Virus record (IMG/VR): IMGVR_UViG_3300030060_006852
Location: 1,352-29,667 of that record
DNA: 28,316 bases
Reading direction: 5' to 3' (one strand)
Source of the DNA: a virus
Part shown: positions 13,887-28,316 of the stretch, one piece after another
How positions within the stretch are numbered: the stretch's first letter is position 1
Layout of the letters: every line of letters starts with the position of its first letter
Position numbers and translations under genes: made by a program
The notes under the pieces: generated by a model
What the model was told of the DNA's origin: nothing
The model's database searches: none
Seen by the model: the letters and a program-made list of their open reading frames with translations, nothing else

Positions 13887-13913
13887 CAAAAAAAGACCCC
13901 TACTGGGGGTCTT
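13887..13913 (-). terminator. intrinsic terminator closing the glycosyltransferase unit
   Basis: On the minus strand a G/C-rich hairpin has stem AAGACCCC paired with GGGGTCTT (13893-13900 with 13906-13913 on the plus strand), a five-base loop (13901-13905), and is followed by a run of seven Ts. This is a textbook Rho-independent terminator. The 5' arm is also the coding end of the small protein upstream: its last codons, Asp-Pro-Gln and the TAG stop, lie in the stem and loop. It separates the glycosyltransferase unit from the late baseplate operon. Confidence 0.88.
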
Positions 13914-14088
13914 CTTCATGTCCGAGGTATCTTACCTCTATTTCATCTGGGTGAGGAAACCCTTCTTTATAATAATCATCTGCTAATTCTTGCGTTATAT
14001 CGAGCATCTCCTCCTCTGATATTTTACTAAACTCTTTACTCCCTTTGATGTAAATATCGTACAATTCCATAGCAGTTATATTGATCAT
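13900..14088 (-). CDS. small acidic conserved-type phage protein (62 aa)
   Basis: An acidic protein, mostly helical by composition, with no membrane segment or metal-binding cysteines. Its readable blocks are ELYDIYIKGSKEF, ISEEEMLDITQELADDYY and FPHPDEIEVRYLG. I do not recognise a named family. I place the start at ATG 14086-14088; a GTG one codon upstream (14089-14091) would add one residue, and an internal ATG at M6 is another option. The gene begins 9 bases after the glycosyltransferase stop, so the two are one transcript. It ends inside the terminator hairpin: the stop TAG is in the loop. The tight coupling to a sigma-70-type promoter and a terminator suggests early or constitutive expression, unlike the late baseplate genes next door. 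Function unknown. Confidence 0.75.
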   Translation of the reverse strand: MINITAMELYDIYIKGSKEFSKISEEEMLDITQELADDYYKEGFPHPDEIEVRYLGHEEDPQ

Positions 14089-14097
14089 CACCGCTAT

Positions 14098-14871: not shown

Positions 14872-14900
14872 ATTATAACACTTTATATAGCGTCTATCAA
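14872..14900 (-). promoter_or_regulatory. sigma-70 promoter for the glycosyltransferase unit
   Basis: Minus strand: -35 TTGATA (14895-14900), a spacer of 17 bases, -10 TATAAT (14872-14877). That is 5/6 and 6/6 matches to consensus at the ideal spacing. The predicted start of transcription is near 14865, leaving about 15 bases before the ATG at 14850. The -35 lies in the last codons of the upstream SGNH-like gene. This is one of the two best promoters in the window and implies host-sigma-70 expression of the glycosyltransferase and the small acidic gene. Confidence 0.82.
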
Positions 14901-15527
14901 CTCAATAACTTTTTCTGCCATTATCTTGTGTCCTTCTGCACTAGGATGCCCACCATTTTTACCTTGAGCGTAATTTTCTGGATTATCCCTATCACCTCCT
15001 AATAAGTGAAATTGTATCAGAGATGGATTGTAATTTTTACATAGTTGTCTCCAATATCCTACATGCCCATTATAAAAATTTTGAGGTCTTAGAATACTAG
15101 GTTCAAAGTGATCTGCAATTAAAGAAACATACTTTTGACCAACACTCTTACAATATGAGTCAACTAAAAAAATATTTTTCCACATGTTTTCTACACCAAG
15201 TACATCATTGTATACCTTTGTGTAATAATCCTTTTGAGTATTAGTTCTTATCCATTGTGGTGTATACAATTGAGGATCTTTCTTTTTATCGTAATACTCG
15301 ATTCTAGATGTAACTGTAAATTGCACAACAGCAACATCGGTTGAAGTGTTCTGTAAGTGCTTGATTGTATTTCTTGCAATATAATCATTGCTAACACCGC
15401 ATTTAGAAATGTTGACGTGACCACATTTATAGTGATCGGAAACAAGAGTGCTATATCTTTCTTTTATTCTGTTTTGTAGTTCATCACCCCATGTGATACT
15501 ACAACCACTAAAACACAGTGACATCAT
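14883..15527 (-). CDS. SGNH-hydrolase-like protein, paralogue 1 (214 aa)
   Basis: A small protein with an SGNH/GDSL-like layout. Block I is FSGCSITWGDEL with the candidate nucleophile Ser10 (GCS in place of GDS). Block II is NISKCGVSND, with its Gly and Asn-Asp. A strand reads VAVVQFTVTSRIEYY where the classical block III (GxND) would be. The C-terminal block V is GGHPSAEGHKIMAE with His194 and His200. The Asp that normally sits three residues before the catalytic His is absent (an Asn is there), so a Ser-His dyad or an altered reaction is likely. Esterase/acyltransferase is the parsimonious guess, but substrate and activity are unproven. It overlaps the carbamoyltransferase 3' end by about 20 bases (a second ATG, M2, lies three bases in), so it is the downstream partner of that gene in one operon. 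It is one of six paralogues in the window. Confidence 0.78.
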   Translation of the reverse strand: MMSLCFSGCSITWGDELQNRIKERYSTLVSDHYKCGHVNISKCGVSNDYIARNTIKHLQNTSTDVAVVQFTVTSRIEYYDKKKDPQLYTPQWIRTNTQKDYYTKVYNDVLGVENMWKNIFLVDSYCKSVGQKYVSLIADHFEPSILRPQNFYNGHVGYWRQLCKNYNPSLIQFHLLGGDRDNPENYAQGKNGGHPSAEGHKIMAEKVIELIDAI

Positions 15528-16884
15528 ACCTCATCTCAAATAATTTTGCATCTCCGATTGTATTTACCATAGGTTTACCCTTGATGTTTAGAGATGTATT
15601 CAACAGCACTGGGCAACCCGTACGTGCGTACCATGCCTCCAGTATTGGTCTAAGTATGCTCTCTGAATCTAACGGTACCGTTTGTACCCTCGCACTATTA
15701 TCGACGTGTATACAAGCAGGTATCGCCTTAGGTTGCTTACACTTATAGACATAGGACATGTATCTCGAATTGGAAGGCATATCAAAGTAGTCCTGACAAT
15801 GCTCCTCCAAAATTGCAGGGGCGAATGGTCTGAATTTATCTCTTCGTTTGATTTCATTCACTAAGTCTTTTGTGCTAGCTTGCCTCGGATCCGCCAATAG
15901 ACTTCTATTACCAAGAGCACGAGGACCGAACTCAGCACGGCCATTCGCAACCCCCACGACTCTTTTTTCGAGGAGTGCATCAACAACTCTCCTTGGATCA
16001 CAGAACTTTTGTATATTATATCCTAGATATGGACTAAAGACAACCTTTTTACCATATGATAAACATGCTGCCCCTAGAGCACCCCCTGCGTCACCAGGAC
16101 AAGGCATAATCCAAAGGTTATACATTTCCCTTAGACCTGTGTTTACAACGCAATTCAAGGCAACACCACCCCCATAGCAAATATTCTTACTATATCGTGA
16201 TGCTATATCAAATATTTCATTGAGTTCTAATTGCAATATCCTCTCTGCACTTTTAGCGACATCACATTTATCATAATCACCCAGTCTAATTCCTTTATGA
16301 TTGTTTCTGCGTAATGCTCTCTCGACAACATTCAAGTGCACGGGATGACCATACGCTGCCATGCCCATGAAGATGTATTCTTCGTCTAATGGTCGCAGAC
16401 CTGCCCATTTTGTCAAGGCAGAATACCATAAACCAACAGATTGCGGATACCAGCGTGACCACACTTTTTTATAACACGCATGCCCCTTGACATACTTTGC
16501 TGTCCATATAGATGTGCAGTCCCACTCTCCAATACTGTCAACCACCACACATGCTGCTTGATCAAACGGTGATGTTTGAAACGCTGCTGCTGCGTGTGAT
16601 TTATGATGACTATGATACTCAGTGGGTTTGAGTGATAAGTGTCTCTGCCTATACCACGCTTTCTGACCTGCAAAAAATTGTCTGGTTCTTTTCAACCACG
16701 GTCTTTCGTAAAAAGCTATCTTACCATCAGTCGATAGCAATCTCGCTGTGGATGCTGCAGTGACATCAAGGTGTTTGTCATGTTTCTTTTTTGAATATCT
16801 CTCTGAGTGTGCTGCGTAGGGTATTCTGCCATTGTTTACCACAGCTACTGCTGCGTCATGAAACCCTTCACTGAATCCAATCAT
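15508..16884 (-). CDS. NodU/CmcH-type carbamoyltransferase
   Basis: A 458-residue member of the carbamoyltransferase family (NodU, TobZ, CmcH), which moves carbamoyl from carbamoyl phosphate, via carbamoyl-adenylate, to a sugar or other hydroxyl. The N-terminal Kae1-like domain shows HSHHKSHAAAAF (91-102) with the metal-binding histidines, then VVVDSIGEWD and GGGVALNCVVN (238-248). The C-terminal YrdC-like half carries NGRAEFGPRALGNRSLLADPR (314-334), RDKFRPFAPAIL (348-359), HVDNSARVQTV (393-403) and LLNTSLNIKGKPMVN (427-441). It is somewhat shorter than typical family members (about 550-600), mainly in the N-terminal part. The ATG at 16882-16884 overlaps the upstream stop (ATGA), and its own stop overlaps the start of an SGNH-like gene. 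Sampled lines of this gene are visibly richer in G+C than neighbours. The acceptor is probably the same glycan worked on by the other enzymes of the island. Confidence 0.93.
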   Translation of the reverse strand: MIGFSEGFHDAAVAVVNNGRIPYAAHSERYSKKKHDKHLDVTAASTARLLSTDGKIAFYERPWLKRTRQFFAGQKAWYRQRHLSLKPTEYHSHHKSHAAAAFQTSPFDQAACVVVDSIGEWDCTSIWTAKYVKGHACYKKVWSRWYPQSVGLWYSALTKWAGLRPLDEEYIFMGMAAYGHPVHLNVVERALRRNNHKGIRLGDYDKCDVAKSAERILQLELNEIFDIASRYSKNICYGGGVALNCVVNTGLREMYNLWIMPCPGDAGGALGAACLSYGKKVVFSPYLGYNIQKFCDPRRVVDALLEKRVVGVANGRAEFGPRALGNRSLLADPRQASTKDLVNEIKRRDKFRPFAPAILEEHCQDYFDMPSNSRYMSYVYKCKQPKAIPACIHVDNSARVQTVPLDSESILRPILEAWYARTGCPVLLNTSLNIKGKPMVNTIGDAKLFEMRYDVTVF

Positions 16885-18008
16885 TCTATAATACCATGTC
16901 TTATACTAATGGGACCTTCAGGACTACCCACTTCATATATTCTACCACGTCTTCTCATATCTTTCATACCTCTTTTATAGATATATTCTTTTGCTATCTT
17001 CTCATACCTTTCTCGTTCTGGATAATCGCCAGGATGAGTGTTTGTTCTTTCTAAAGGGTCTTCTTCAAAACCAAAAGTATCCTTGTAACTATCTCTGTCC
17101 ATATTGAAATAGTATGGTGTGATTTTATTTGTTGAGAAGTAATTCTCAATTCTTCTTACTTGTGAAACTACAATATCGAGATAATTCCACAATATGCCTC
17201 TTTTGATTGCATACAATTTATTTGCATTTTGAGTTCCAAACCTTCTCAATACATTTTTGTTAGTATATCTTTTTAATTTGCTTGCGAAACAATCAACCAA
17301 ATCTTCCTTGTATGGAATTATATTATGTCTTTGTTTATATTTTTTTATGACATATCTCTCTGCCTCAGTTTGAGGATGAAGTTGGTAATGTATGTTTGCA
17401 CCTAACATATGTCTCCCCATTATTGAGAATGGATCGAATACTATATCAACATCGCATAATTCATCTATCAAAGGCACTATGCCAGGATGCACTCCTTCAG
17501 GTTTGAGATATGGTTCTAAAAAAGTCTGAAGATAGTTTTGTCCTGCCGACACTGGAAAATGCTCTTGAAGTTCTTCAAAATACTTATCAGTGAAGAATAC
17601 CTCAACAGGGTCTTTGTCCTTCATCAAAATGTCGGGAGGTCTTCTATCATTTACATCGCCAAAATATTGAACCATCATATCTCCACCAATTTCACTCGTG
17701 TTTGAGTGTAATTTTGTAGCACTTATAGAACTTTTTGCTGTTTCATTTAAATATGGGTGTCGTTTTTTCGTGTGCACAAGAGGTTTCTGACCAAAAGTTG
17801 TTTTAGTCTTTATTGGTGTCTCTACTACAGATGATCCCTTTCTTACCACATATGTTTTTTCAATTCTTCTTCTGTAATCATTAGGATCATGCCACTGTGT
17901 GTAATAATAAAATGGGTGTTTGATTTTTGTATATCTTTTTTTATTGATTTCAATAAGTTGCATCAAGTGCATCTTACCCATGTTAGGTGTTGCCCAATAA
18001 TTAATCAT
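16881..18008 (-). CDS. unrecognised family protein, GKM/NIIPYK type (375 aa)
   Basis: I do not recognise this as a known family. The N-terminus MINYWATPNMGKMHLMQLIEINKK resembles the plus-strand 236-residue protein at 23930-24640 (shared YW, GKM, QL.EIN). Three more blocks also align: a strand-like VDIVFDPFSIMGRH; KQRHNIIPYK; and ITPYYFNMDRDSYKDTFGFEEDP near the C-terminus. These common blocks imply a homologous core, with about 130 extra residues here in the Lys/Thr-rich N-terminal part. GKM near the N-terminus recalls a degenerate P-loop, but the usual Ser/Thr is Met, so I do not claim nucleotide binding. The ATG at 18006-18008 has an AGGA/GAGG-type ribosome binding site in the end of the microprotein upstream. 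It overlaps the carbamoyltransferase start (ATGA), so the two are probably made together. A role in sugar or surface modification is inferred from location only. Confidence 0.7.
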   Translation of the reverse strand: MINYWATPNMGKMHLMQLIEINKKRYTKIKHPFYYYTQWHDPNDYRRRIEKTYVVRKGSSVVETPIKTKTTFGQKPLVHTKKRHPYLNETAKSSISATKLHSNTSEIGGDMMVQYFGDVNDRRPPDILMKDKDPVEVFFTDKYFEELQEHFPVSAGQNYLQTFLEPYLKPEGVHPGIVPLIDELCDVDIVFDPFSIMGRHMLGANIHYQLHPQTEAERYVIKKYKQRHNIIPYKEDLVDCFASKLKRYTNKNVLRRFGTQNANKLYAIKRGILWNYLDIVVSQVRRIENYFSTNKITPYYFNMDRDSYKDTFGFEEDPLERTNTHPGDYPERERYEKIAKEYIYKRGMKDMRRRGRIYEVGSPEGPISIRHGIIE

Positions 18009-18013
18009 GGATC

Positions 18014-18106
18014 TTATTCCTCATCATCCTCGTAGATGTATGGGTCTTGACGACGAAGTTTCCAGAGTTTGTACTCACCCTTGATCCAATTCCAAAGTCT
18101 TTTCAT
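18014..18106 (-). CDS. 30-residue microprotein with basic helix and acidic tail
   Basis: A short open frame filling the gap between a sulfotransferase gene and the 375-residue protein. It begins MKRLWNWIKGEYKLWKLRRQ and ends in an acidic tail (Tyr-Glu-Asp-Asp-Glu-Glu). The start is tight against the sulfotransferase end. An in-frame ATG at 18116-18118 would add four residues (MVIK) and overlap the sulfotransferase stop. The Trp/Lys-rich amphipathic N-terminal stretch with a terminal acidic patch is not random-looking, and very short conserved proteins of this kind exist in marine T4-like phages as I remember them. Its stop is five bases before the next ATG, and its end supplies that gene's GAGG/AGGA ribosome binding site. 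Function unknown; possibly membrane- or nucleic-acid-associated. Confidence 0.55.
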   Translation of the reverse strand: MKRLWNWIKGEYKLWKLRRQDPYIYEDDEE

Positions 18107-18108
18107 TT

Positions 18109-19038
18109 TTATAACCATGACTGAGGTATATATCCAAACTCTTTGTGCCACTTCTGGTATACATCTTTCAATTTATTTTTGCCCCAATTTATATCTTCAT
18201 CTGATAGTTTTTGCAGATCAGCAGGTGTATTGTCGTTATTTACGCCAATATACGGACAGTATACATTTGCATTGATTTGATTGATTTCACACCCTAGAAA
18301 GTCACAGAGACCACTTTGATCGTACCAAAACTCTTCCATAACAATTGGGTAGGTCTCAAACACTTTTTTATAATTGTTATAGATCTTGATATAGTCGCAA
18401 TTGTGATCCAATCTTTTTGATCGCCAGTATTCAATACTATCCTTATACTTAGATACATCTACTGTTTGATCTCTCCACTCCATCGGACGTTGACCAGTAT
18501 TATGTTTATACTCTACTGACGCTTCAGAATACCACCTTCTCACTGGATCACGAAATATTATCGTTGCCTTAACAGTGAAGTGTTTTTCTAATTCATTTTT
18601 GATAGATGCAAGAAAATCAGAGGGTAAAACTGCATTACTATTTGAAAAGTCTGATAGTCCAATATATCCTTTCTTTTTGTACCTTTCCCATAGATCAAGA
18701 TGATATTTTATGTAAGTATGAATCGTTGTTCGTTTTTTAAAGATATTTTGCCAATATGTCGAATCAAGTGGAGTATACATGCTACTTGATACAATCTTGT
18801 GCACTTTTTGATTAGCAATGGCAGATTGCACTCTATAATTGTGTTTTTCGTCAAAATACCGTTTTGCTTGTTTTTGATTGGTTTGTAGAAGGAAAAGATA
18901 GTATAATATGTTGTTTTCATGAACTATGCCATGATGTGCAATTCTTTGACGACTGTGTAAGGTTTTGCAATAAGGTTTAGTTCCAGACCAAGACACACCT
19001 GCGTTTATTAGTAATAATGGTTTATTTGTTCCACTCAT
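18109..19038 (-). CDS. sulfotransferase-like protein, paralogue 1 (309 aa)
   Basis: PAPS-dependent sulfotransferases move sulfate onto a hydroxyl or amine. Two PAPS-binding signatures are present: the N-terminal 5'-phosphosulfate loop LINAGVSWSGTKP (residues 10-22) and the 3'-phosphate motif IIFRDPVRRWYSE (about 160-172, with Arg163, Arg167/168, Ser171). Between them, SDFSNSNAVLPSDFL (about 129-143) is shared with three of the other four paralogues in this window. The C-terminus keeps VMEEFWYDQSGLCDFLG and NVYCPYIG. I place the start at ATG 19036-19038, 17 bases inside the upstream paralogue; an ATG at 19074 would add 12 residues that do not fit the family. Probably cytoplasmic; the acceptor is unknown. 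Confidence 0.85.
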   Translation of the reverse strand: MSGTNKPLLLINAGVSWSGTKPYCKTLHSRQRIAHHGIVHENNILYYLFLLQTNQKQAKRYFDEKHNYRVQSAIANQKVHKIVSSSMYTPLDSTYWQNIFKKRTTIHTYIKYHLDLWERYKKKGYIGLSDFSNSNAVLPSDFLASIKNELEKHFTVKATIIFRDPVRRWYSEASVEYKHNTGQRPMEWRDQTVDVSKYKDSIEYWRSKRLDHNCDYIKIYNNYKKVFETYPIVMEEFWYDQSGLCDFLGCEINQINANVYCPYIGVNNDNTPADLQKLSDEDINWGKNKLKDVYQKWHKEFGYIPQSWL

Positions 19039-19945
19039 CTGGTACATATCCAAAGGTTTTCTCAAATTCGGCATATACTGACTTCATAAGTCTTGCACAG
19101 GTTTTATATTCATCATTAGTAATATCTACTTTATCTGAACTGTATTGATCACTCAAATATTCATATTTTGGTGGATTAGAACCCATGTCTGGGTAATACA
19201 CATTTTCATGTACTTTTGTAAAATTATATCCCAAAAAATCCGACAAATATCCCAATTCTTCTTTTTGTGTTTCTGGATTCCATAATTCTTCCATTACTAT
19301 CGCTCTTACATTCTCTACCCCCCATATAAGTGCATGTCTTCGATATATTGATGAATAATAAGCGTTAGGTTCAAAAGCACCAGACAACCACTTGTACATT
19401 ACTTGTATTGGTGTCATATCCCCGTATTCATGATTCTTTACACATTTATTTGCTACAGAAAACAATCTTCTGACAGGATCTCTAAATTGCATGGTTACTT
19501 TGATGTCAAAGTGTTCTAATAAAGCATCTTTTATCTCCATCATGAAAGGAATCGATAAAAGAGCATTTTGATTAGAGAAATCACCTACCCACTCGTAATC
19601 ATGCTTACAATTATCCCAATGTTTCTTGTAATACCAAATATAATTTTCTATCGACAAAGAATCGTAAAAAAATCGATTTTCTTCTTCTTTAGTCCACTTA
19701 CCCAAGACGTATGGAGATAAGTGAGTGAGTAAGTCTGGTTTTTTACGTTTTTTCGCAACATTCGGTTTAGGTCTTTTACCATCCAAACGAATATTGTCTT
19801 CACCCTCCATCATATTGAAAAGGTACATGTGTTCCTTGGTATGACCCGTATAAACACACTTATGATCCCATGATACAGTGTAATGGAAGGGTGATGTCGC
19901 AGAAAAACAAGTTCCCGTGTTTAGAAGTAGTTTTATTTTTCCCAT
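19022..19945 (-). CDS. sulfotransferase-like protein, paralogue 2 (307 aa)
   Basis: The same family as its neighbours. 5'-PSB loop: LLNTGTCFSATSPFHYTV (residues about 8-25). 3'-PB: VTMQFRDPVRRLFSVANK (about 150-167; Arg155, Arg159, Ser163). The GDFSNQNALL block (about 122-131) is present with a Gln in place of the usual Ser. The C-terminal part keeps VMEELWNPETQKEELGYLSDFLG and NVYYPDMGSNPPKYEYL, the latter resembling the 'YxPxxGxxxP' turn in paralogues 3 and 5. A Lys/Arg-rich stretch (about 58-70, PKPNVAKKRKKP) is peculiar to this copy. I choose ATG 19943-19945; an in-frame TTG two codons further up (19949-19951) is possible. It overlaps both neighbours by 13 and 17 bases. Substrate unknown. 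Confidence 0.85.
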   Translation of the reverse strand: MGKIKLLLNTGTCFSATSPFHYTVSWDHKCVYTGHTKEHMYLFNMMEGEDNIRLDGKRPKPNVAKKRKKPDLLTHLSPYVLGKWTKEEENRFFYDSLSIENYIWYYKKHWDNCKHDYEWVGDFSNQNALLSIPFMMEIKDALLEHFDIKVTMQFRDPVRRLFSVANKCVKNHEYGDMTPIQVMYKWLSGAFEPNAYYSSIYRRHALIWGVENVRAIVMEELWNPETQKEELGYLSDFLGYNFTKVHENVYYPDMGSNPPKYEYLSDQYSSDKVDITNDEYKTCARLMKSVYAEFEKTFGYVPDEWNK

Positions 19946-20850
19946 TGACAAGGTATGTAATTGAAATACGATTTAAAATTGTTATAAACCCATGCTAACT
20001 TATTTCTACCATATTGTAAATCATCATCTGTCAAATCTTGCATATCTGAACTCCATTGATCTCTGAGACCCTCAATTTCTGGTCTCTTTGTTCCCCTTTC
20101 TGGAAAATACACATTATCATGCATTTTTTCTATCTTCATACCAAGAAAGTCAGACAAACCGCTAGGATCTTCCCACACCTCTTCCATGATAACAGGATAC
20201 ACCTTGTTGAAAGCAGATTTCCAATTTTTCAAGTTAGAAATGTAGTCAGGCACCAAATATGGATCTGGATTATTTAATTTTGATTTCCAAAAAGAAATAC
20301 TGTCAGGATACTGCTTCTTTATCATCTGCCAGTGAGCTAGTTTTGCTGGATCTCTTATTTTCCACCCTTCATACGCTTTATCATTTTCTGTGCTCATTTT
20401 ATACCATGCTGAAATTTGCGAATATGATCTACGAACAGGATGCCTCCAAATCATTGTAATTCTTACATCAAATTCTTCTTCTAATGCAGGTGCTATCTCT
20501 TTTAGGAAGTAATCTGGTAGATCACCGTTGCTATTTGAGAAATCACAAACACCTCTATGACTATCTTTTACTTTACTCTTCATATACTCAATATACCATG
20601 GCAATGTGGTATTTTTTCTAACAAAATCAAACTTTCTATGTTTATGATCAGTGTGCCAATAGTATCTCGCATGAACTGGTTTATATTTTCTCTCATACAA
20701 GTAATATAACATATTAGGTTCTGTTGTTGAACCTTTTTTATCACTTGTGAAGTTATGGTGGCAATAACCTATGTTATCTAGAGTGTAGCATAGTGGTTTA
20801 GTGGCAGACCACCCTACCCCTGCGTTTATGTGGAGGATTGGTTTAGTCAC
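19933..20850 (-). CDS. sulfotransferase-like protein, paralogue 3 (305 aa)
   Basis: Clear PAPS motifs: HINAGVGWSATKPL (residues 7-20) as the 5'-PSB loop and MIWRHPVRRSYSQ (about 133-145; Arg136, Arg140/141, Ser144) as the 3'-PB. The Asp of the RDP motif is His here, unlike the other copies. The CDFSNSNGDLPDYF block is at 102-115. The C-terminal third (NVYFPERGTKRPEIEGLRDQW, then SSDMQDLTDDDLQYGRNKL) is strikingly like the plus-strand paralogue at 22472-23386 (DQYESDLEDLTHDDLVYGRRYL), so those two are probably the closest pair. The start is GTG at 20848-20850, overlapping the end of the 2OG-oxygenase gene by 8 bases. Probably a soluble cytoplasmic enzyme. It sits directly after a hydroxylase, which could supply the hydroxyl acceptor. 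Confidence 0.86.
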   Translation of the reverse strand: MTKPILHINAGVGWSATKPLCYTLDNIGYCHHNFTSDKKGSTTEPNMLYYLYERKYKPVHARYYWHTDHKHRKFDFVRKNTTLPWYIEYMKSKVKDSHRGVCDFSNSNGDLPDYFLKEIAPALEEEFDVRITMIWRHPVRRSYSQISAWYKMSTENDKAYEGWKIRDPAKLAHWQMIKKQYPDSISFWKSKLNNPDPYLVPDYISNLKNWKSAFNKVYPVIMEEVWEDPSGLSDFLGMKIEKMHDNVYFPERGTKRPEIEGLRDQWSSDMQDLTDDDLQYGRNKLAWVYNNFKSYFNYIPCQWEK

Positions 20851-21439
20851 AGTCTATAAAATAATCAAAGTCTATTCTATCTGGTCTTATTTTATCAGGA
20901 TCAGCAAAAAAAGTTGCAATAACTATTCTTTCATTACTTGAGACATATCTATGCCATGTCTTAGGTCTTGGATTGTGAGCAAACAGTCTATTTGGTTTCC
21001 AATCTACTTGCACTTCTTTTTTTGATGATTGATCAGGTCCATTGCTATTTCCGTCATCATTAGTAGATGGATTATCACACAAAATAGTGCCCACATTCTT
21101 TTCTGGACTCACATACAATATGGATGTATGAATTCTTGAAATATTGTCGATATGACATGGATATTCTGTATTGGGTGCCATGATTGCCCAATGATTTAAT
21201 TTCACTAACTTATCATATTTTTTATGATACTGAAAATTCATGATATCTTTGTTTATCTCAGGTATCAAATCATCTTTTACATATCTCACATATTTTCCAC
21301 GAGGTGTATTAGATCCAACTGTTTTGAATTTTTCAGACTCTATTTTTGCTAAGTCATTGATAATTTTAAATCTTTCTGGTGATAAAAAATTATCAACGAT
21401 TCCGTATTGCCAAGGATCTGAATATATCTGTAAATTCAT
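20843..21439 (-). CDS. 2-oxoglutarate/Fe(II)-dependent oxygenase
   Basis: A 198-residue single-domain oxygenase. The metal triad is visible as H96-x-D98 (EYPCHIDN) and H163 (PKTWHRY), with Arg171 (SSNERIVIATFF) as the likely 2-oxoglutarate-carboxylate binder. These lie on a double-stranded beta-helix-type scaffold (LNHWAIMAPN, HTSILYVSPE, RLFAHNPRPK, IVIATFFADP). The family hydroxylates a carbon of a peptide, sugar, lipid or nucleobase; marine phages often carry such genes. The N-terminus (residues 10-40) is the usual helical start of prolyl-hydroxylase-like members. The gene starts ATG 21437-21439, overlapping the sulfotransferase stop (ATGA), and ends inside the next sulfotransferase. This sandwiches it between two sulfotransferases; the substrate is probably shared with that pathway, which is inference. 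Confidence 0.85.
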   Translation of the reverse strand: MNLQIYSDPWQYGIVDNFLSPERFKIINDLAKIESEKFKTVGSNTPRGKYVRYVKDDLIPEINKDIMNFQYHKKYDKLVKLNHWAIMAPNTEYPCHIDNISRIHTSILYVSPEKNVGTILCDNPSTNDDGNSNGPDQSSKKEVQVDWKPNRLFAHNPRPKTWHRYVSSNERIVIATFFADPDKIRPDRIDFDYFIDCD

Positions 21440-22461
21440 AATTTATAATCTAATGCTTCTCCCCAATGTAAAGGAAGAGATCCATAATAATCTTTCCATT
21501 CATCGTAAATGTATTGACATTGTTTTTTTAACAAATAATATGTATCAGGTTTCAACTCAAGATTTTGACCATATGCTTGACATGGGACATCTTTATCAAA
21601 TTCTACATGATGACCTATATCTGGTGAATAAAGATTTTTCCATAAGTTGTCTATGGGATGATCTAAAAAATTAGATAATCCTTTTTTTGCGGTGCCGTCA
21701 TCTTCCCATAAATCTTCCATTGCAACAGCATAAACATTGTCCTTTCCAAAAACTTGATCTGCAAGTTTAATTTTCTTCATATAATCCTTAAACATTATTT
21801 CAATAGGTCCTGCATAAACTATTTGAAAATCATCAGGAATCTCTCCATCAGGATTTCGAGCATCAGGTAAAAGGTCAAGAGTCACTGTCCCATCTGAGCA
21901 TAGCCTTTTCTTCTTTTCCAAGAGAAAAAGAAATTCTGAGTAGGCACGACGAACAGGATCTCTTGTTATAAAAAGAAACTTTACATCAAACTCAAACATG
22001 AGTAATTTACAGAATTCCCTTAAATCTTTTCTAAATGCTTTATACCCTATACGACAATCACCCACAGACTTATAACCTTTACTAACTACATGATCATGGA
22101 GTGCGTGAAAAAAATCTAGTTGCTTTCTTTCCGATCTTTCACCACTCATGAGTTTATCAAAATGTGAAATTGGAAAATCATAAAGAGGTTCAAGGTCAAT
22201 AGCAAGATTCATGTTATGAGTAGCTGGTTTATATCTTTGGTGATTTTCCCAAGTTCCGTTTCTTACTCTATCGTAAAGATGTTTTAACATAGGTGATAAA
22301 TTAGGATCACCCCTATAACTTGGGTTACGTTCAGCACCAAGATATCTAAATTGTTTCGTATAACCAAAGTGTGCGTACTTTGCATTACGTTGAAGAGTAT
22401 ATACAAGTGGAGAGGTTGCACACCAACCAAATCCACCTACTAGGAGAATTTTTGGTTTCAT
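21436..22461 (-). CDS. sulfotransferase-like protein, divergent paralogue 4 (341 aa)
   Basis: This copy is the outlier of the five. The 5'-PSB loop LVGGFGWCATSPLVYTL (residues 7-23) and 3'-PB LFITRDPVRRAYSEF (163-177; Arg167, Arg171, Ser175) are intact, but the DFSNSN block of the other copies is replaced by VGDCRIGYKAFRKD (133-146). An extra segment of about 50 residues is present (residues 41-120, with NPSYRGDPNLSP). The C-terminus keeps VAMEDLWEDDGTAKKGLSNFLD and NLYSPDIGHH. The start ATG (22459-22461) is only 10 bases from the start of the divergent plus-strand sulfotransferase, with no room for two normal promoters. It probably works on a different acceptor from the others. The family assignment is firm. 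Confidence 0.85.
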   Translation of the reverse strand: MKPKILLVGGFGWCATSPLVYTLQRNAKYAHFGYTKQFRYLGAERNPSYRGDPNLSPMLKHLYDRVRNGTWENHQRYKPATHNMNLAIDLEPLYDFPISHFDKLMSGERSERKQLDFFHALHDHVVSKGYKSVGDCRIGYKAFRKDLREFCKLLMFEFDVKFLFITRDPVRRAYSEFLFLLEKKKRLCSDGTVTLDLLPDARNPDGEIPDDFQIVYAGPIEIMFKDYMKKIKLADQVFGKDNVYAVAMEDLWEDDGTAKKGLSNFLDHPIDNLWKNLYSPDIGHHVEFDKDVPCQAYGQNLELKPDTYYLLKKQCQYIYDEWKDYYGSLPLHWGEALDYKL

Positions 22462-22471
22462 AACTATATCT

Positions 22472-23386
22472 ATGAAGATAAGAACTCCCCTTATTATTGG
22501 TGCAGGGACGGGTTGGAGTGCTACAAGTCCACTTTATATGACTTTACAGTGCTCAAACAAATGTGCTCACGTTGGATTGAAAAAAGAAGATCATTTGTTG
22601 TATCATGTTTATAGTAATGATGCTTGGGAGTGGAGAAAACCAGATTATCAGGATCTCATAAGAGATTCAATGAGTCCAGTCTGGAAATATGAGTGGGGAA
22701 GACAGAGTAAATATGCTTTTCATAAAAATTTAGATGAAATTCATGAATTATACACAAAACCAACTCTTGACACTTATATCAATTACTATATTCGACATTA
22801 TCAAAGAGTAAAACACGAATATTCTTATGTTGCTGACTTTTCTAATAGTAATGCACAATTACCACTTAGTTTTTTAGAAAAAATTGCTCCAGAACTAAAA
22901 AAACACTTTAAAATTAAGGTTTTGATGATTTTTAGAGATCCAGTTCGCAGATTATACAGTGAGTTATCTCACAAATATCAAAATGACGAAAATTTACGCA
23001 AAAAATACCCAACTTCCAAAGATTATTACTGGAGTTATCTTAAGATAGGCAATTATAGCATAAATTGTGAGTATGTCAAGCGAATAAAGTATTATAAATC
23101 AGTTTTTGATACCACAACTATCATTTCTGAGGATCTTTGGGGTGAAAAGAACGATGCTTTAGCAAAACTTAGTAATTTTTTACAGTTTGACATCAAAAAC
23201 CTGTGGCCTAATTGCTATTATCCTGAAATGGGAACAAAAGCACCTCACTATGAGAACCTTGCTGACCAGTATGAGTCGGATTTAGAGGATTTGACCCATG
23301 ATGACTTGGTTTATGGTAGGAGATACCTTGCAAAATACTATGATGAGTGGTATAATTATTTTGGGACAACGCCTTGGAGGTGTTGA
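22472..23386 (+). CDS. sulfotransferase-like protein, paralogue 5 on opposite strand (304 aa)
   Basis: The only sulfotransferase on the plus strand. Motifs are complete: LIIGAGTGWSATSPL (7-21) and LMIFRDPVRRLYSE (151-164; Arg156, Arg160, Ser163), plus ADFSNSNAQLPLSFL (121-135) and the acidic block DQYESDLEDLTHDDL near the C-terminus. Residues 120-165 and the C-terminus are nearest to the minus-strand paralogue at 19933-20850. The ATG (22472-22474) sits 10 bases from the start of the minus-strand gene. I see no convincing sigma-70 or late promoter in front of it, so its transcription is unclear. The 3' end overlaps the SGNH-like gene on the other strand by 31 bases. The 'ATG GAT' orientation switch suggests an inversion during island assembly. 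Function as for its relatives. Confidence 0.86.
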   Translation: MKIRTPLIIGAGTGWSATSPLYMTLQCSNKCAHVGLKKEDHLLYHVYSNDAWEWRKPDYQDLIRDSMSPVWKYEWGRQSKYAFHKNLDEIHELYTKPTLDTYINYYIRHYQRVKHEYSYVADFSNSNAQLPLSFLEKIAPELKKHFKIKVLMIFRDPVRRLYSELSHKYQNDENLRKKYPTSKDYYWSYLKIGNYSINCEYVKRIKYYKSVFDTTTIISEDLWGEKNDALAKLSNFLQFDIKNLWPNCYYPEMGTKAPHYENLADQYESDLEDLTHDDLVYGRRYLAKYYDEWYNYFGTTPWRC

Positions 23387-23931
23387 GCGATCAAATTGTG
23401 ACCTTCTTTGCTAGGGTGACCAGTAACATAGTGTTTGGGGTGTGTTTCTGGAGTGCCGATCAGGTCATATAAGGTCACCATGTCACTCCAAGGCACCAAT
23501 TTTTTAAAAATGCAGTCATTTTGCACATTTTTTTCGGATCCTTCACTTGCTCTCCAAAAATAATGCGGAGTGTTTTGCAAATATTGCTCTAAAATATACA
23601 CATTCTTCCATAAATTATACATTCTCATCTCTTGAGAGTCCAAATACTTAAAAAATACCCTTGATTCTGTGTTTTTAGTCCAAGGAGTAATGTTCTTCCA
23701 ACCATTTTTATAGTACATAACTCTTCTTGGCACTGTAAATTGAGTTATAACGTAGTCTACATCAGGATATTTCTCTATATACTCTATAGTTTTCATGACA
23801 ATCATGTCATTTGACATTCCACACTCAGCAATATTCACGTGTTGCTTATAAAACTTTGTAGAAAACCTATCTGCTATACGATTTTCTAACTCATCACCGT
23901 ATGTTAGACTACATCCAGAGAATAAAATCAT
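23356..23931 (-). CDS. SGNH-hydrolase-like protein, paralogue 2 (191 aa)
   Basis: Same layout as paralogue 1: FSGCSLTYGDEL (Ser8 as candidate nucleophile, GCS), NIAECGMSND (Gly-Asn-Asp block), strand VITQFTVPRRVMYY, and block V TGHPSKEGHNLIAQ, with no Asp three residues before the first His. I place the start at ATG 23929-23931, because it gives MILFSGCSLTYG like the others. An upstream in-frame ATG would add 67 residues that are antisense to the neighbouring plus-strand gene and look non-homologous, so I reject it. The start codon shares two bases with the divergent plus-strand start (CATG). Its 3' end overlaps the plus-strand sulfotransferase by 31 bases. Substrate unknown. Confidence 0.76.
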   Translation of the reverse strand: MILFSGCSLTYGDELENRIADRFSTKFYKQHVNIAECGMSNDMIVMKTIEYIEKYPDVDYVITQFTVPRRVMYYKNGWKNITPWTKNTESRVFFKYLDSQEMRMYNLWKNVYILEQYLQNTPHYFWRASEGSEKNVQNDCIFKKLVPWSDMVTLYDLIGTPETHPKHYVTGHPSKEGHNLIAQHLQGVVPK

Positions 23932-24640
23932 GAATAAATTTGCATATTGGGGTGGAGTAAGAAGCGGAAAGATGCAAGTTTGGCAATTGTTTGAAATTAA
24001 TGGTAAAAAAACTGCTGTCTTACCACAATCAGGGAAAAAATGGCCTGCATATGCGATTATATATGGCAAAGAATATATGCAAATATACCATGAAGTAAAC
24101 GGAAAAATAAAAACTAAAATATGTAAACCCACTGTGTTTGAAAATGGAGTTTACAAAAATAATTTTCAAACAAACGGAGTTGATAGATACAAAGATTGGT
24201 CAAGAGACCCTCAAGTTTTATATCAATGCTTTAATAAAGTATTTGAACAAGATCTTATTATATGTCCGTATTTGTTGTTTGGATATCATGGAAGTAAGTA
24301 TGGTAAAATGGGAAATGAGGAGTATAATGTAATGATAAAAAACAGAAAACCAGATATGATTGTTGATCTTGATTATTCAATCAAGATGCTCAAGAAAAGA
24401 CGCAATATCATACCATATAAAAGCAACAAATCACATGAGACTTACATTTTTACAATGTGTCACCCAGATCCTTTAGTATGTTTAGAAAGGCAAAAACACA
24501 GCGTAGAACTTATTGATTTGACTAAAGAATTACTAACAGAGTATGATATACCTTACGAAATGTTTGATTTAGATAATCCAGATTACTCGATATTTGGTTT
24601 TGACAAATCTATACCCAAAGAATTATTTGATCAAAACTAG
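23930..24640 (+). CDS. unrecognised family protein, GKM/NIIPYK type (236 aa)
   Basis: A plus-strand homologue of the 375-residue protein at 16881-18008. Shared blocks are NKFAYWGGVRSGKMQVWQLFEING at the N-terminus (versus NYWATPNMGKMHLMQLIEIN), then DLIICPYLLFGYHG (versus VDIVFDPFSIMGRH), KKRRNIIPYK (versus KQRHNIIPYK), and DIPYEMFDLDNPDYSIFGFD near the C-terminus (versus ITPYYFNMDRDSYKDTFGFE). GGVRSGKM resembles a P-loop with Met in place of the last Ser/Thr. There is a CxxxxxxC pair (TMCHPDPLVCLE) that could be redox or structural. I do not recognise a function. The start shares bases 23930-23931 with the minus-strand SGNH start, and the end shares a CTAG with the minus-strand epimerase stop. 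The insert is therefore fitted base-by-base between minus genes. I find no obvious promoter in front. Confidence 0.72.
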   Translation: MNKFAYWGGVRSGKMQVWQLFEINGKKTAVLPQSGKKWPAYAIIYGKEYMQIYHEVNGKIKTKICKPTVFENGVYKNNFQTNGVDRYKDWSRDPQVLYQCFNKVFEQDLIICPYLLFGYHGSKYGKMGNEEYNVMIKNRKPDMIVDLDYSIKMLKKRRNIIPYKSNKSHETYIFTMCHPDPLVCLERQKHSVELIDLTKELLTEYDIPYEMFDLDNPDYSIFGFDKSIPKELFDQN

Positions 24641-25485
24641 GTTTTAGAAATATAAGACAATATTCGATCTTTAGCAACATATCCAAGTAATACAAATGCT
24701 TTAGTCATATCAGCATTACACACATCTAAATCATCTGGTGTGGGGTGTGTATATCTGTATGGACAATTGAATTGTTTTACAATCTCATCAACAGTTCGAG
24801 GAACACCAGTTCCCATATTGATTATTTCGTATGGATTACCCTTATGGCGATTGACAGCAAGCATGATACCTTCTACTAGATCATCCACATGAATAAAATT
24901 GCGAACACGATTACCTCTACCTCTTACAATGATTTCACCACTCTCAACCATCGCCTCGTATATTGATATCATCCCTTGCTGCATATCATTTTTATCTTGA
25001 TTGTCACCATAGCAATTATATATTCTCAAAGTATTACAAACCACCGATGGGTTTCGTTTAGAGAATACTTCAAGTATCTGTTCCGCTTGTAATTTATGAA
25101 CTCCATACCATGAAAGAGGTTTAGGGATATCAGTCTCCTTTGCTTTACCATTATTACCATAAACCGTCATACTACTCGCAAGGGTTATACTTTTTACATC
25201 ATAGTGTTCGCAAGCACTCAATAACCTTTGAGTTGTCAATACATTTCTTATAAAATCATTTGTAGGATTTTTTGCTGAACGCTCACCAGAACTCTGACCG
25301 CATAAGTGTATTATATGTTGTGGTTTATGATAATTTACCCATGATGTAAATTGTTCTGATGAACAATCTATTTGTTCATCGCAATCAAATATACCCTTAC
25401 TAAAATCATCTACTCTATACCCACCATATTTTTTCCAAAGGTTATATCCGATAAAACCTGCTCCACCTGTAATAAGTTTATACAT
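24637..25485 (-). CDS. extended SDR, NAD-dependent epimerase/dehydratase
   Basis: A 282-residue extended short-chain dehydrogenase. It has the Rossmann motif GGAGFIG (7-13), an NAD-site loop HIIHLCGQSS (57-66), Ser104/105 in TLASSMTVYG, and the catalytic Y127-x-x-x-K131 (SWYGVHKLQAEQ). It continues with LRIYNCYGDNQ and RVRNFIHVDDLVEGI, the usual family blocks of UDP-glucose 4-epimerase/dTDP-glucose dehydratase-like enzymes. It probably makes or rearranges a nucleotide sugar for the island's glycan work; the exact sugar cannot be read. The length is slightly short of the usual 310-350. The start ATG 25483-25485 overlaps the upstream SGNH stop by 8 bases. Its stop is the CTAG shared with the convergent gene. 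Confidence 0.9.
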   Translation of the reverse strand: MYKLITGGAGFIGYNLWKKYGGYRVDDFSKGIFDCDEQIDCSSEQFTSWVNYHKPQHIIHLCGQSSGERSAKNPTNDFIRNVLTTQRLLSACEHYDVKSITLASSMTVYGNNGKAKETDIPKPLSWYGVHKLQAEQILEVFSKRNPSVVCNTLRIYNCYGDNQDKNDMQQGMISIYEAMVESGEIIVRGRGNRVRNFIHVDDLVEGIMLAVNRHKGNPYEIINMGTGVPRTVDEIVKQFNCPYRYTHPTPDDLDVCNADMTKAFVLLGYVAKDRILSYISKT

Positions 25486-26242
25486 CCATCATCTTCAGTA
25501 TGTGTTCTGCAATTTTTTTATGACCTTTTGCACTTGGATGTGATCCAGAAAATCTTTTGTTTAGATTATTGTCTAGCACTTCGCTTTCTAAATTACGAGT
25601 GAAATAAGGATTGAACCATTTCCATCTACCTCGATTCTCTTCTGAAATTTTGGTTTCAACAGGCAACTTTAAAAGAGTTTTCAATTCAAGTATCTCAACA
25701 TCGTGACCCACTGCACCATACCAAAAATTTTTAACGTTACCATACACTCGGTCTCTTGGTACTTCACCTAGGTTGATATGAATGATTTGACACTTATCTT
25801 TCAAGTAGTTGCGTAACATAAACATGTTTTTCCAGTAATTATCAACACAAAATTGATCGTTGATTGCCACATACTGAAAGTATGCCTTCTGTGCCTCTTC
25901 TTTCTCAGTGGTTGCATAAAGATAGGAATCTCTTTGTTTCCACTTTGCTGGCATGTGATGTTGCTTACCGTTTTTATCATACCATAACCACCTCTTCTCT
26001 TGACTGAACTGGATGACTGCAACATCGCAACTATTACCTTCTTCAAACCACTCAATAGTTTTTTTGACAATCCAATCATTACTTGTCCCACTGATTGAGA
26101 TATTTTCAGAAGTTTTACCTAAACTCTCTGACACTAAAGTTGAAAATCTTTCTTTTACTCTTCTAGTATGATTTTGTTCAGGTCCTTGTAACTCCTCTCC
26201 CCAAGTGTAACTATCACCACAGAAAAATAAATCTACTTTCAT
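25478..26242 (-). CDS. SGNH-hydrolase-like protein, paralogue 3, canonical GDS (254 aa)
   Basis: Starts MKVDLFFCGDSYTWGEEL and has a true GDS (9-11, Ser11), unlike most copies. It then shows NISISGTSND (Gly52, Asn55, Asp56), strand VAVIQFSQEKRWLWY, and C-terminal SHPSAKGHKKIAE (His235, His241). The Asp expected three residues before the catalytic His is absent. A central insertion (residues about 100-215, with many Trp/Lys residues) makes it longer than the others. It overlaps the epimerase start downstream by 8 bases and the next SGNH stop upstream by 4. As the best-preserved block I, it is the best candidate for hydrolytic activity in the set. Unproven. Confidence 0.78.
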   Translation of the reverse strand: MKVDLFFCGDSYTWGEELQGPEQNHTRRVKERFSTLVSESLGKTSENISISGTSNDWIVKKTIEWFEEGNSCDVAVIQFSQEKRWLWYDKNGKQHHMPAKWKQRDSYLYATTEKEEAQKAYFQYVAINDQFCVDNYWKNMFMLRNYLKDKCQIIHINLGEVPRDRVYGNVKNFWYGAVGHDVEILELKTLLKLPVETKISEENRGRWKWFNPYFTRNLESEVLDNNLNKRFSGSHPSAKGHKKIAEHILKMMDV

Positions 26243-26988
26243 TTGAGTTTCTCCATTGTATTTACAATACCTAAAAGGTGATCTGCTATCATACGATGAC
26301 CTTCTTTTGTAGGGTGACCATAACGATGCACTAGACTTCTATCTAGAATTGGTTTGCCATCGTCTTTTCTTTTGCTAGGGTGAGTTGTATTCATCATATA
26401 ATCAAACCTTAGTTTACTCCATGCATTGATAGAGCAAAGAATTAAGGGTACTCCTTTGATTTGACAATAGTTCTCAATTGTTTGTTTGTGTATGTTTTCC
26501 TTTGTATTAAAGAACTTCTCAGTTGTCACTACCTTATAATATTCTTTCCAGAAACGCTTATCATAGTGAAACTTCTCCTGTAGATTCTTGAATACCTCAT
26601 GCTCTTCTTCTTTTGACAATGAATCTTTAGTGCTCATATCTGCCCACTTGACACCTATCGCTTTTCTCAAATGCAAAAAGTAACTGAACTGGTACTTTGG
26701 GTTGACATTGATCCAACCTGATGGATGGACATCTTTGTCATATTCAACACCACTGTAATACTCAGTTCTAGCAGGGAAGGTCATCTGTATAATCGCCAAG
26801 TCATATTTTTCTATATCATTCTCCACCATTAGGTTTCTGACCATTCGATCATTTGATGCACCTGAAGTTGAAAAGTTGTCTAGTTTTGCACCCAGATCAT
26901 TTGCTATCAATTTAGAAAATCTTTGCTCTTTACGATTCTCTAACTCTTCACCACATGTCCAAGAACATCCATCAAAATAAATTTTCAT
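26239..26988 (-). CDS. SGNH-hydrolase-like protein, paralogue 4 (249 aa)
   Basis: Begins MKIYFDGCSWTCGEEL (Ser9, GCS), with NFSTSGASND, LAIIQMTFPARTEYY, and the C-terminal block GHPTKEGHRMIADHL. I take ATG 26986-26988 as start, because it matches its two neighbours' MKIYFDG-type start and lies 17 bases inside the upstream gene. A further ATG at 27024 would add 12 residues (MQMTLLKLLRIA) that only re-read the upstream gene. A stretch with SKEEEHEVFKNLQEKFHYD (about 145-165) suggests a helical lid insertion. The 4-base overlap with the next gene (ATGA) keeps it in one transcript. Function as for its paralogues, unproven. Confidence 0.78.
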   Translation of the reverse strand: MKIYFDGCSWTCGEELENRKEQRFSKLIANDLGAKLDNFSTSGASNDRMVRNLMVENDIEKYDLAIIQMTFPARTEYYSGVEYDKDVHPSGWINVNPKYQFSYFLHLRKAIGVKWADMSTKDSLSKEEEHEVFKNLQEKFHYDKRFWKEYYKVVTTEKFFNTKENIHKQTIENYCQIKGVPLILCSINAWSKLRFDYMMNTTHPSKRKDDGKPILDRSLVHRYGHPTKEGHRMIADHLLGIVNTMEKLK

Positions 26989-27532
26989 AGCGATCCTTAA
27001 TAATTTTAATAATGTCATCTGCAATCATACGGTGACCTGTTTCATTTGGATGACCATATTTTGCACGAGGATATTTATTTAGATTCAAATTAAAATTTAT
27101 TCTCTGGTCTGAATTTGCTTCCTCACTCTTATAAGACCTGTTTGTAGTAATGACTAATGGTATATTACGAAGTTTACAGTGATCTTTTATTGCTTTATAA
27201 TAAAGATACTCATAATCTTTACCAAATTGATCATGGTAAACATTGATCTTATAATATTCTCTCGCTAGTTTGTGTAACCTTTTATATTCTCTTCCATTAT
27301 AATATTCCGATCTAGATGGCAAGGACATCTGTATTATTGCTAAATCGTATCTTTTAATATTGTTCTCTACGATAAGTCTTCTTGCAATAGTCGAATTACC
27401 ACTTCCATTTACCGCAAAGTTACACTCTTCAGCATTATAATGATCTGATATCAAACGACTGAATCTACTTTCAGTATAGTCAAGAAGTTCGCATCCTCTG
27501 GTAAATGAATCGCCATCAAAGTATATTTTCAT
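26972..27532 (-). CDS. SGNH-hydrolase-like protein, paralogue 5 (186 aa)
   Basis: The shortest of the array. It begins MKIYFDGDSFTRGCELLD (true GDS, Ser9), has NFAVNGSGNSTIARRL in place of the GASND block (the usual Asp is Ser), LAIIQMSLPSRSEYY, and C-terminal GHPNETGHRMIADDI. It lacks the mid-protein insertion of paralogues 3 and 4. The ATG 27530-27532 overlaps the upstream paralogue's stop (ATGA), and its own stop overlaps the start of paralogue 4 by 17 bases. Paralogue 4's start region matches paralogue 5's, suggesting recent tandem duplication in this stretch. The DNA matches near the GHP...MIADD codons could support recombination between copies. Confidence 0.78.
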   Translation of the reverse strand: MKIYFDGDSFTRGCELLDYTESRFSRLISDHYNAEECNFAVNGSGNSTIARRLIVENNIKRYDLAIIQMSLPSRSEYYNGREYKRLHKLAREYYKINVYHDQFGKDYEYLYYKAIKDHCKLRNIPLVITTNRSYKSEEANSDQRINFNLNLNKYPRAKYGHPNETGHRMIADDIIKIIKDRYENLF

Positions 27533-28179
27533 TGTTTATGAGTAATACGATTGATGATCATACTATGAATGTCATCTGCAATCAGTTGACGAGTAATACG
27601 AGTAACAAATAAATTGTATATGTCATCTGCAATCATACGATGACCCTCTGGTGTGGGGTGACCTCCCCTTAATTTTGGATACTTTTCAAGTTCTAAACTT
27701 ATATCAAATTCTAAATTGGTGCTCCAATTATTGTTTGTCATTAGGATAAGAGGAACATTATTTACTTTGCAATGATCCTTTATAGTTTGATATACAATTT
27801 TTTCTCTTATGACACCTTGAATATCTGTGTATATGTTTTTATAATAGTGTTGCCAAAATTGCCTGTCTTCCTTCTTACTATTCTTTAATAAAAAAGTTTT
27901 ATTTGGTTGCACCTGATAAAATTTACTTTTCAACATATCATAATACTCAGTTCTACTTGGATATGACATTTGAATTATTGCAAAGTCATATTCACATATA
28001 TTATTTTCAACAAACAAATTTCTTAGTATTCGCTCATTACTTGCACCAGGTTGTGATTTATTGTGATCTCTAGCACCTATCTTCTCGCAAAATACTCTAC
28101 TGAATCTTTGTGATTCTCTGTGTTCCTCTTCAAGTTCTCCACCGAATGTGCGAGAACATCCATCAAAATATATTTCCAT
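27529..28179 (-). CDS. SGNH-hydrolase-like protein, paralogue 6, with duplicated tail (216 aa)
   Basis: The first gene of the minus-strand array in this window. It begins MEIYFDGCSRTFGGELEEEHR (GCS, Ser9), has NKSQPGASNERIL (Asp replaced by Glu), FAIIQMSYPSRTEYY, and GHPTPEGHRMIADDI. The C-terminus is odd: after MIADDIYNLFVTRITRQ comes a near-repeat LIADDIHSMIINRITHK, which ends the protein. A 51-base tandem duplication at 27540-27641 encodes it. The ATG at 28177-28179 lies just before a short region with no minus-strand promoter that I find convincing. Function as for its paralogues. Confidence 0.78.
   Translation of the reverse strand: MEIYFDGCSRTFGGELEEEHRESQRFSRVFCEKIGARDHNKSQPGASNERILRNLFVENNICEYDFAIIQMSYPSRTEYYDMLKSKFYQVQPNKTFLLKNSKKEDRQFWQHYYKNIYTDIQGVIREKIVYQTIKDHCKVNNVPLILMTNNNWSTNLEFDISLELEKYPKLRGGHPTPEGHRMIADDIYNLFVTRITRQLIADDIHSMIINRITHKQ
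27540..27641 (-). repeat. 51-base tandem duplication inside SGNH gene
   Basis: Two adjacent 51-base units (27540-27590 and 27591-27641) share GAGTAATACGA at one end and ATGTCATCTGCAATCA near the other (plus-strand reading), with divergence between. The unit is 17 codons, so the reading frame is kept and the protein gains a repeated MIADDI/LIADDI tail. It is probably a recent local duplication by slippage or recombination. Confidence 0.75.
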
Positions 28180-28316
28180 GTTGACAACTCATAATCAGTG
28201 TGTTATATTATCTATGTAGAGGAGCGACGGTTCCTTTACAGGGAGTGACTGAATAAACTTACTGGCATTTTGCTAGTTAAGGTGATGAGTCAGAGGTGGT
28301 GCTCGCTGTTGGCAAC
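28180..28316. other. non-coding edge region holding a rightward leader
   Basis: There is no convincing gene on the minus strand in this 137-base tail. On the plus strand it holds the promoter described separately, then a leader with an AGAGGAG-like stretch (28218-28224). An open frame begins at ATG 28285 (MSQRWCSLLA) and runs off the edge; only 10 codons are visible and the Shine-Dalgarno spacing is poor, so I do not call a gene. I also see no tRNA fold. Confidence 0.45.
28181..28209 (+). promoter_or_regulatory. strong sigma-70 promoter pointing right
   Basis: Plus strand: TTGACA (28181-28186), 17-base spacer, TATATT (28204-28209). That is a perfect -35 and a 5/6 -10 at ideal spacing. It lies directly beside the ATG of the leftmost-reading array (28179) and faces away from it. 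The transcript would start near 28216 and read out of the window. Confidence 0.75.

Follow-up and report, generated by a model that had tools for sequence, protein, structure and literature searches.

We describe here a viral gene island that encodes several sulfotransferase-fold proteins (STs), several SGNH-like proteins and a carbamoyltransferase, and that lies beside the baseplate gene gp25 in the IMG/VR virus record IMGVR_UViG_3300030060_006852. The window, by which we mean the whole stretch of DNA analysed, comprises 28,316 nucleotides (G000:C1:1352-29667) within a 41,370-base IMG/VR contig. The reading that we favour, with a probability of about 0.5, is that the island is a tailoring island decorating a carbohydrate in a pattern that differs from one phage lineage to the next, and that this carbohydrate is more likely carried by the virion than by the host surface. 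The island is a variant of the cyanophage carbohydrate cluster, and its most surprising part is an ST family with an aromatic residue in place of the P-loop lysine. An earlier note, made from the sequence alone, had listed at 14883-28179 five STs, six SGNH-like genes, a carbamoyltransferase, a 2-oxoglutarate (2OG)-Fe(II) oxygenase, a short-chain dehydrogenase/reductase (SDR) and two copies of an orphan family, here called WG, and all of these are present.

Using the five STs of the window, we recovered 61 viral loci in which the order gp7L-gp6-gp25-GT-SGNH-carbamoyltransferase-[WG]-ST(n) recurs (GT, glycosyltransferase-like gene), with up to nine STs per locus. As these loci were fetched with an ST, the ST-based recurrence in 51 of 51 holds by construction, and two independent anchors were therefore used. 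Every one of the 53 loci anchored on the carbamoyltransferase that had sufficient flanking sequence has ST genes (47), SGNH-like genes (47) or both, and GT is found in 53 and gp25 in 52 of them, so that the recurrence as a block in related phages, which the earlier note had put forward as a check, is borne out. Among the GT-anchored loci, 21/32 have the carbamoyltransferase and all 21 also have ST and/or SGNH-like genes; the other 11 have neither the carbamoyltransferase nor ST or SGNH genes, and none has an ST without the carbamoyltransferase. The GT-anchored loci were drawn from the nearest 80 of more than 600 GT hits, so that 21/32 is no frequency for all cyanophages, and the counts do not represent independent events, since some of the loci are closely related. 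When ST3, ST4, ST5 and two SGNHs were compared by tblastn with 50,697 deposited phage records, only AG-345-D19 matched, and WG and u0, an SGNH-like family seen only in related islands, matched nothing in the same records. AG-345-D19 is a single-particle assembly from plate AG-345, which was sorted through the extracellular gate (PMC6122165), and it is therefore probably a virus particle. We found no description of arrays of such genes in the open PMC literature, to which the search was limited.

The STs of the window are diverse, ST2-ST5 being 25-41% identical to the first. A profile built from 68 non-redundant relatives matches PDB sulfotransferases (3rnl, E 2e-7; heparan sulfate (HS) 3-O-sulfotransferase (3-OST) 5, E 3e-4), and the AlphaFold model of ST3 (predicted local distance difference test, pLDDT, 91.3) gives 18 fold matches in the PDB at E<=1e-3, every one of them a sulfotransferase, among them HS 3-OST, NDST1, a cyanobacterial olefin-synthase domain and tyrosylprotein sulfotransferase (TPST). 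As modelled, the overall fold of ST3 is closest to carbohydrate sulfotransferases, and the fold assignment made in the earlier note is thus matched by both profile and model.

The motifs for 3'-phosphoadenosine-5'-phosphosulfate (PAPS) that had also been claimed are only partly there. The 3'-phosphate-binding Arg is kept in 221/224 and the Ser, eight residues further on (RDPxxRxxS), in 216/222 of the readable distinct STs. By contrast, the position of the P-loop Lys or Arg, which could be read in 217 of the 235 distinct phage-contig stretches of ST, is occupied by W in 145, F in 40, H in 18, Y in 12 and K in 2, and never by Arg, whereas Lys stands within the aligned motif GxGAQKxGT in 6/6 picocyanobacterial relatives examined. 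A pattern scan of bacterial genome contigs gave no close ST relatives, and a profile search in host-family genomes did find the canonical Lys-bearing ones. In the tree, Lys-bearing and aromatic STs are separated by one clean split (100/93 support, 100% of bootstrap trees), several long branches making it unsure where the one phage row with Lys belongs. Within the aromatic side W, F, Y and H interchange with no return to Lys, which argues that an aromatic residue is kept and not merely that lysine was lost. In NDST1 the catalytic acid has been proposed to be the equivalent residue, Lys614 (PMC3733922). The replacement of this Lys weakens the claim that the island sulfates; the sulfotransferase fold and the PAP-type 3' site stand. 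To judge from these motifs, PAP(S) is probably bound at the intact 3' site of the STs, whose aromatic P-loop is unusual, and the transferred group is uncertain.

Turnover in the island is rapid. Relative to the window, best hits have a median identity of 82% for GT, 71% for gp25, 70% for the carbamoyltransferase and 67% for gp6, and 27-36% for STs and 25-45% for SGNHs. The ratio of non-synonymous to synonymous substitution (dN/dS) of orthologues is 0.06-0.27 for STs and 0.08-0.27 for SGNHs (0.04-0.27 for island genes overall), and as it is low where orthologues exist, the low ST and SGNH identity reflects replacement, not decay. At 55% identity the STs fall into 46 clusters and the SGNHs into 31, and few genes have a cluster-mate in their own locus (6/187 ST, 0/94 SGNH); such non-redundant, locus-specific sets would be expected if each enzyme had its own position or substrate. 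The carbamoyltransferase and GT are near constant between genomes and the ST and SGNH content varies, so that island repertoires are combinatorial rather than fixed. From the proposal of the earlier note that one pathway tailors a glycan, the families, the folds, the multi-copy nature and the recurrence hold; a single linear pathway, sulfation and (de)acylation are not established. The sets are combinatorial and the ST active site is without its usual Lys.

The relation of the SGNH-like proteins to known hydrolases, also suggested in that note, is seen through relatives, which match Pfam GDSL (up to 2.6e-6) and DUF6071 (3e-11); the block I nucleophile Ser (GxS) and the block V His are each present in 55/55. 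Family u0 aligns to the SGNH family by hhalign at 99.4%. In L031-L034, L041, L045 and L047 the GT and SGNH genes are separated by a radical SAM gene (u26), and u0 is present in as many as five copies. The carbamoyltransferase has both NodU/TobZ Pfam domains above the cut-off (178.9 and 108.4 bits), and its identity and that of the SDR are unambiguous. The match of the window protein to 2OG oxygenases is weak (E 0.007), with the HxD...H residues present. The two WG genes of the window are paralogues, and WG belongs to no family and has no PDB sequence relative of weight; a WG model (pLDDT 85.7) gave no PDB or BFVD fold match at E<=1e-3, and a search of 300 host-family genomes, made without a positive control, found none. 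A start resembling a P-loop and low-ranking fold hits to Stf0 made us consider WG as a divergent sulfotransferase, which we rejected as unsupported (hhalign probability 0.6%, no significant fold match). The GT-like protein has no PDB profile match and a GT-A fold is unsupported. As P-SSM2 and S-SSM7 have GT near gp25 without an island, it belongs to the ordinary cyanophage backbone, and we rejected it as an island member and treat it as a backbone anchor, the constant neighbour of gp25.

No island protein has strongly hydrophobic or membrane-spanning segments and all look soluble, and no membrane initiating transferase, flippase or polymerase (Wzx/Wzy) was recognised among the island families with Pfam and PHROGs, so this is not a complete polysaccharide biosynthesis locus. 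An anti-phage defence island was also considered and rejected, PADLOC giving only a generic 2OG match.

To the left of the island lie T4-like baseplate genes, gp25 at 13442-13846 (PF04965, 1.1e-8) and gp6 at 11280-13442, and a gene for a baseplate-wedge-like protein of 2757 aa at 3007-11280 (phrog_2885, E 0). These are followed by the GT-like gene, the island and a divergent manA RNA (Table 1). A 63-aa open reading frame (ORF) lies between gp25 and GT at 13900-14091 (phrog_3252). The genes do fall within 14883-28179 as first delimited, but the island runs on past the window to about 30081 in window coordinates, with the complete manA RNA, a third WG and a seventh SGNH. It occupies the gp25 side of the variable hot-spot between gp46 and gp25 named in cyanophages by Sullivan et al. 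2010 (PMC3037559). Its DNA is essentially filled by genes. The genes had been described as overlapping end to end, which is right for most junctions (4-53 bp) but not for the WG-ST1 gap of 100 bp, the GT-SGNH gap of 32 bp and two divergent junctions, at 22461-22472 (10 bp) and 23929-23932 (about 0 bp, the start codons sharing CATG). The divergent junctions leave no room for ordinary promoters, which must therefore lie inside genes. The starts taken for SGNH2 (23931) and SGNH4 (about 26988) are not the longest-ORF starts. A small gene, u36 (winged helix-turn-helix-like by eye; L005:2651-2962), is found again and again at the island's outer edge, and two neighbouring DNA methyltransferase-like genes at the contig's far end (L005:9984-11704) recur (u20) in related loci.

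Table 1. Features of the island and its borders in window coordinates
Feature	Position	Strand	Evidence
GT-like protein (phrog_1574 / T4-GC 102), DxD in WIDSD	14098..14850	-	phrog_1574 3.7e-114; weak glycosyltransferase PHROGs 1.3e-4
SGNH-like 1	14883..15527	-	weak GDSL, Ser/His kept
Compact NodU/TobZ-type carbamoyltransferase, HHxxHA + GPRALGxRS	15508..16884	-	PF16861 7.9e-53, PF02543 6.6e-31, phrog_1601 3.5e-89
WG family 1, orphan, Walker-A-like YW[AG]xxxxGK	16881..18008	-	alignment (Lys 25/25); model pLDDT 86
ST1, sulfotransferase fold, W at P-loop Lys position	18109..19074	-	
ST2, sulfotransferase fold, F at P-loop Lys position	19022..19951	-	
ST3, modelled	19933..20850	-	fold matches HS 3-O-sulfotransferase, NDST1, TPST
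2OG-Fe(II) oxygenase-like, HxD...H kept	20843..21439	-	PF13640 0.0068; PADLOC 2OG 5.9e-5
ST4	21436..22461	-	Sulfotransfer_1 0.005
ST5	22472..23386	+	Sulfotransfer_1 0.036
SGNH-like 2 (internal ATG start)	23356..23931	-	alignment; start taken from sequence
WG family 2	23930..24640	+	paralogue of WG family 1
Extended SDR / NAD-dependent nucleotide-sugar epimerase-like	24637..25485	-	PF01370 1.2e-35, phrog_540 5e-41
SGNH-like 3	25478..26242	-	PF00657 1.6e-4
SGNH-like 4	26239..26988	-	alignment
SGNH-like 5	26972..27532	-	PF13472 1.5e-4; phrog_5240 tail fibre protein 9.6e-10
SGNH-like 6, first gene of baseplate-directed arm	27529..28179	-	alignment
manA RNA (RF01745), cut by window end	28220..28316	+	complete at L005:572-779, 174 bits; then WG3, SGNH7

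The complete copy of the manA RNA scores 174 bits with the covariance model of RF01745, against a gathering score of 55. Nine of the islands that we looked at have a manA RNA (L005, L009, L012, L014, L017, L019, L028, L036 and L065), complete in seven and cut by locus ends in two. It sits at the island end away from the baseplate, mostly ahead of SGNH, ST or WG genes; in L065 it is six bases upstream of an ST start codon, and in L036 it is unclear which gene follows. The targets given by Weinberg et al. 2010 are mannose/fructose metabolism, nucleotide synthesis, chaperones and photosynthesis (PMC2864571), and ST, SGNH and WG genes do not figure among them in our reading.

The island carriers are uncultured T4-like cyanophages whose host is most likely Prochlorococcus. 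Genes for PsbA and PsbD occur in the two largest related contigs and in AG-345-D19, which indicates cyanophages, and psbA is not on the window's contig; the PsbA of AG-345-D19 reaches 95% identity with Prochlorococcus PsbA. The gp6/gp25 order with phrog_1574, psbA in relatives and the manA RNA are those of a T4-like (Kyanoviridae-like) cyanophage. Near psbA, a 'IIYTCITNGYDE..NYYDPDVRYVMF' domain (DUF616-like by eye) forms tandem repeats in AG-345-D19 (L077:2253-6730) and is present in a single copy in G001. Adenosine-5'-phosphosulfate (APS) kinase is encoded in 7/7 picocyanobacterial genomes and in 0/18 phage records, so that PAPS, if used, would come from the host.

Additional ST, SGNH and WG loci adjoin a tail-fibre protein gene (u17, phrog_32829, 1.4e-27) and a tail-fibre assembly gene. 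In L059-L062, L066 and L008 a second ST locus lies beside tail-fibre/neck genes in the same kind of phage, together with an ST-like family, u8; L058 and L061 belong to one contig. WG and SGNH genes in L071-L073, and WG and ST genes in L006, have a cytidylyltransferase (PF02348) and a SIS/HAD-like gene as neighbours, close to a tail-fibre gene, and CMP-sugar synthesis is possible in these loci.

In the explanation that we propose, the soluble enzymes encoded in one arm, most of whose genes point the same way as those of the baseplate, would be expressed probably late, and an opposite arm would be led by the manA RNA. As the proteins look soluble and we recognised no genes for membrane export or polymerisation, the island would decorate something made elsewhere. 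The carbamoyltransferase may set a constant carbamoyl mark on a carbohydrate, and ST-fold, SGNH and 2OG enzymes, with PAPS supplied by the host, may add or trim other groups at other positions; a constant carbamoyltransferase with variable ST, SGNH and 2OG genes fits such constant plus variable marks on one carbohydrate. Each phage lineage would thereby display its own chemical pattern. The modified glycan would more likely end up on virion tail fibres or baseplate than on the host, and phage charge, adsorption or recognition could be varied without protein change. Several points weigh against this. The 5'-phosphosulfate-binding (5'-PSB) loop lacks its catalytic Lys or Arg, 215/217 STs having an aromatic residue, and the block-V Asp three residues ahead of the His is found in 2/55 SGNHs, so that catalysis is assured in neither family. 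The GT assignment is weak, and GT is also present in phages that have no island. No exact match to the T4-type late-promoter core TATAAATA occurs in the window, so that late expression is deduced from position only. Insertion into the gp25 hot-spot (PMC3037559) could give the same adjacency to virion genes, which is thus no proof, and virion and host surface are not separated by sequence data.

A host-surface role, in which the enzymes alter host lipopolysaccharide (LPS), O-antigen or exopolysaccharide precursors, e.g. to block superinfection or loss on debris, is the usual reading of cyanophage LPS/cell-wall clusters (PMC9602691); the SDR and the cytidylyltransferase point to nucleotide sugars, and soluble cytosolic enzymes could work on nucleotide- or lipid-linked precursors. 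Yet no Wzx/Wzy or membrane-bound initiating transferase accompanies these uniformly soluble proteins, and the orientation of the island and the additional loci adjoining tail and fibre genes do not suit it. We hold this role to be possible, though somewhat doubtful; from the structural-gene position, the orientation and the loci beside fibre genes, a virion substrate would be favoured by about 3:2. A slightly stronger contender, compatible with either substrate although still short of an even chance, is that the ST-fold proteins are no longer sulfotransferases and use another donor, transfer another group or only bind. The near-complete loss of Lys from the phage P-loops against its retention in the picocyanobacterial relatives, the clean split in the tree, the continued purifying selection and the proposed role of Lys614 in NDST1 all agree with this, but the 3'-phosphate Arg and Ser are kept, the fold is nearest to carbohydrate sulfotransferases and another residue could take over the role of Lys. 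It is more speculative, and we consider it unlikely, that the aromatic-for-lysine family, its aromatic residue being obligatory, embodies a new group-transfer chemistry and that reshuffled non-redundant sets under manA control write lineage patterns on virion glycans.

Carbamoyltransferase and sulfotransferase together are also found in NodU/NodH tailoring, and the island might make a small diffusible compound (Nod-factor-like or a glycolipid) with no decoration of a macromolecule, picocyanobacteria having host sulfotransferases. However, no NodC-like, polyketide synthase-like or nonribosomal peptide synthetase-like scaffold gene was recognised and the coupling to baseplate genes would have no reason, which makes this quite improbable. 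The island could also be no more than filler DNA that large genomes carry without any selected function, a view put forward for the LPS genes of cyanophages (PMC3037559). The hot-spot position and rapid turnover would agree with this, but the low dN/dS over the island genes already disfavours it, and the strict all-or-none linkage, the non-redundant sets and the dense packing of genes leave it hardly any credit.

Like the island, the LPS/cell-wall clusters of the large T4-like cyanophages P-SSM2, S-SSM7 and S-SCSM1 have variable sets of carbohydrate enzymes, nucleotide-sugar enzymes and, in some, carbamoyltransferases; they lie near hli03 or phoH (PMC3037559), whereas the island lies beside gp25 and contains ST, SGNH, carbamoyltransferase and WG genes. 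Hot-spot (ii), gp46-gp25 (PMC3037559), has the same position as the island and holds small, mostly hypothetical genes instead of a 14-kb enzyme island. HS 3-OST, NDST and picocyanobacterial sulfotransferases share the fold and RDPxxRxxS with the phage STs, which differ by W/F/Y/H for Lys and by up to nine paralogues per locus. Both Pfam domains and the motifs of NodU/TobZ are found in the phage carbamoyltransferase, which is compact (458 aa) and about 30% identical to carbamoyltransferases of cultured cyanophages. The island SGNHs share Ser, His and the overall motif order with SGNH/GDSL hydrolases and DUF6071, but GDS is often GCS, the block-V Asp is lost and block III GxND is not recognisable (Q-x-T/S instead).

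The island is a concrete candidate regulon for the manA RNA, an orphan riboswitch candidate. The role of phage sulfotransferases has been reported as unclear (PMC10580990), and the island is the strongest genomic case for them that we found, since its STs are multi-copy and under selection, are tied to a single carbamoyltransferase and do not occur in cultured phages; the exchange of lysine for an aromatic residue turns their role into a sharp biochemical question.

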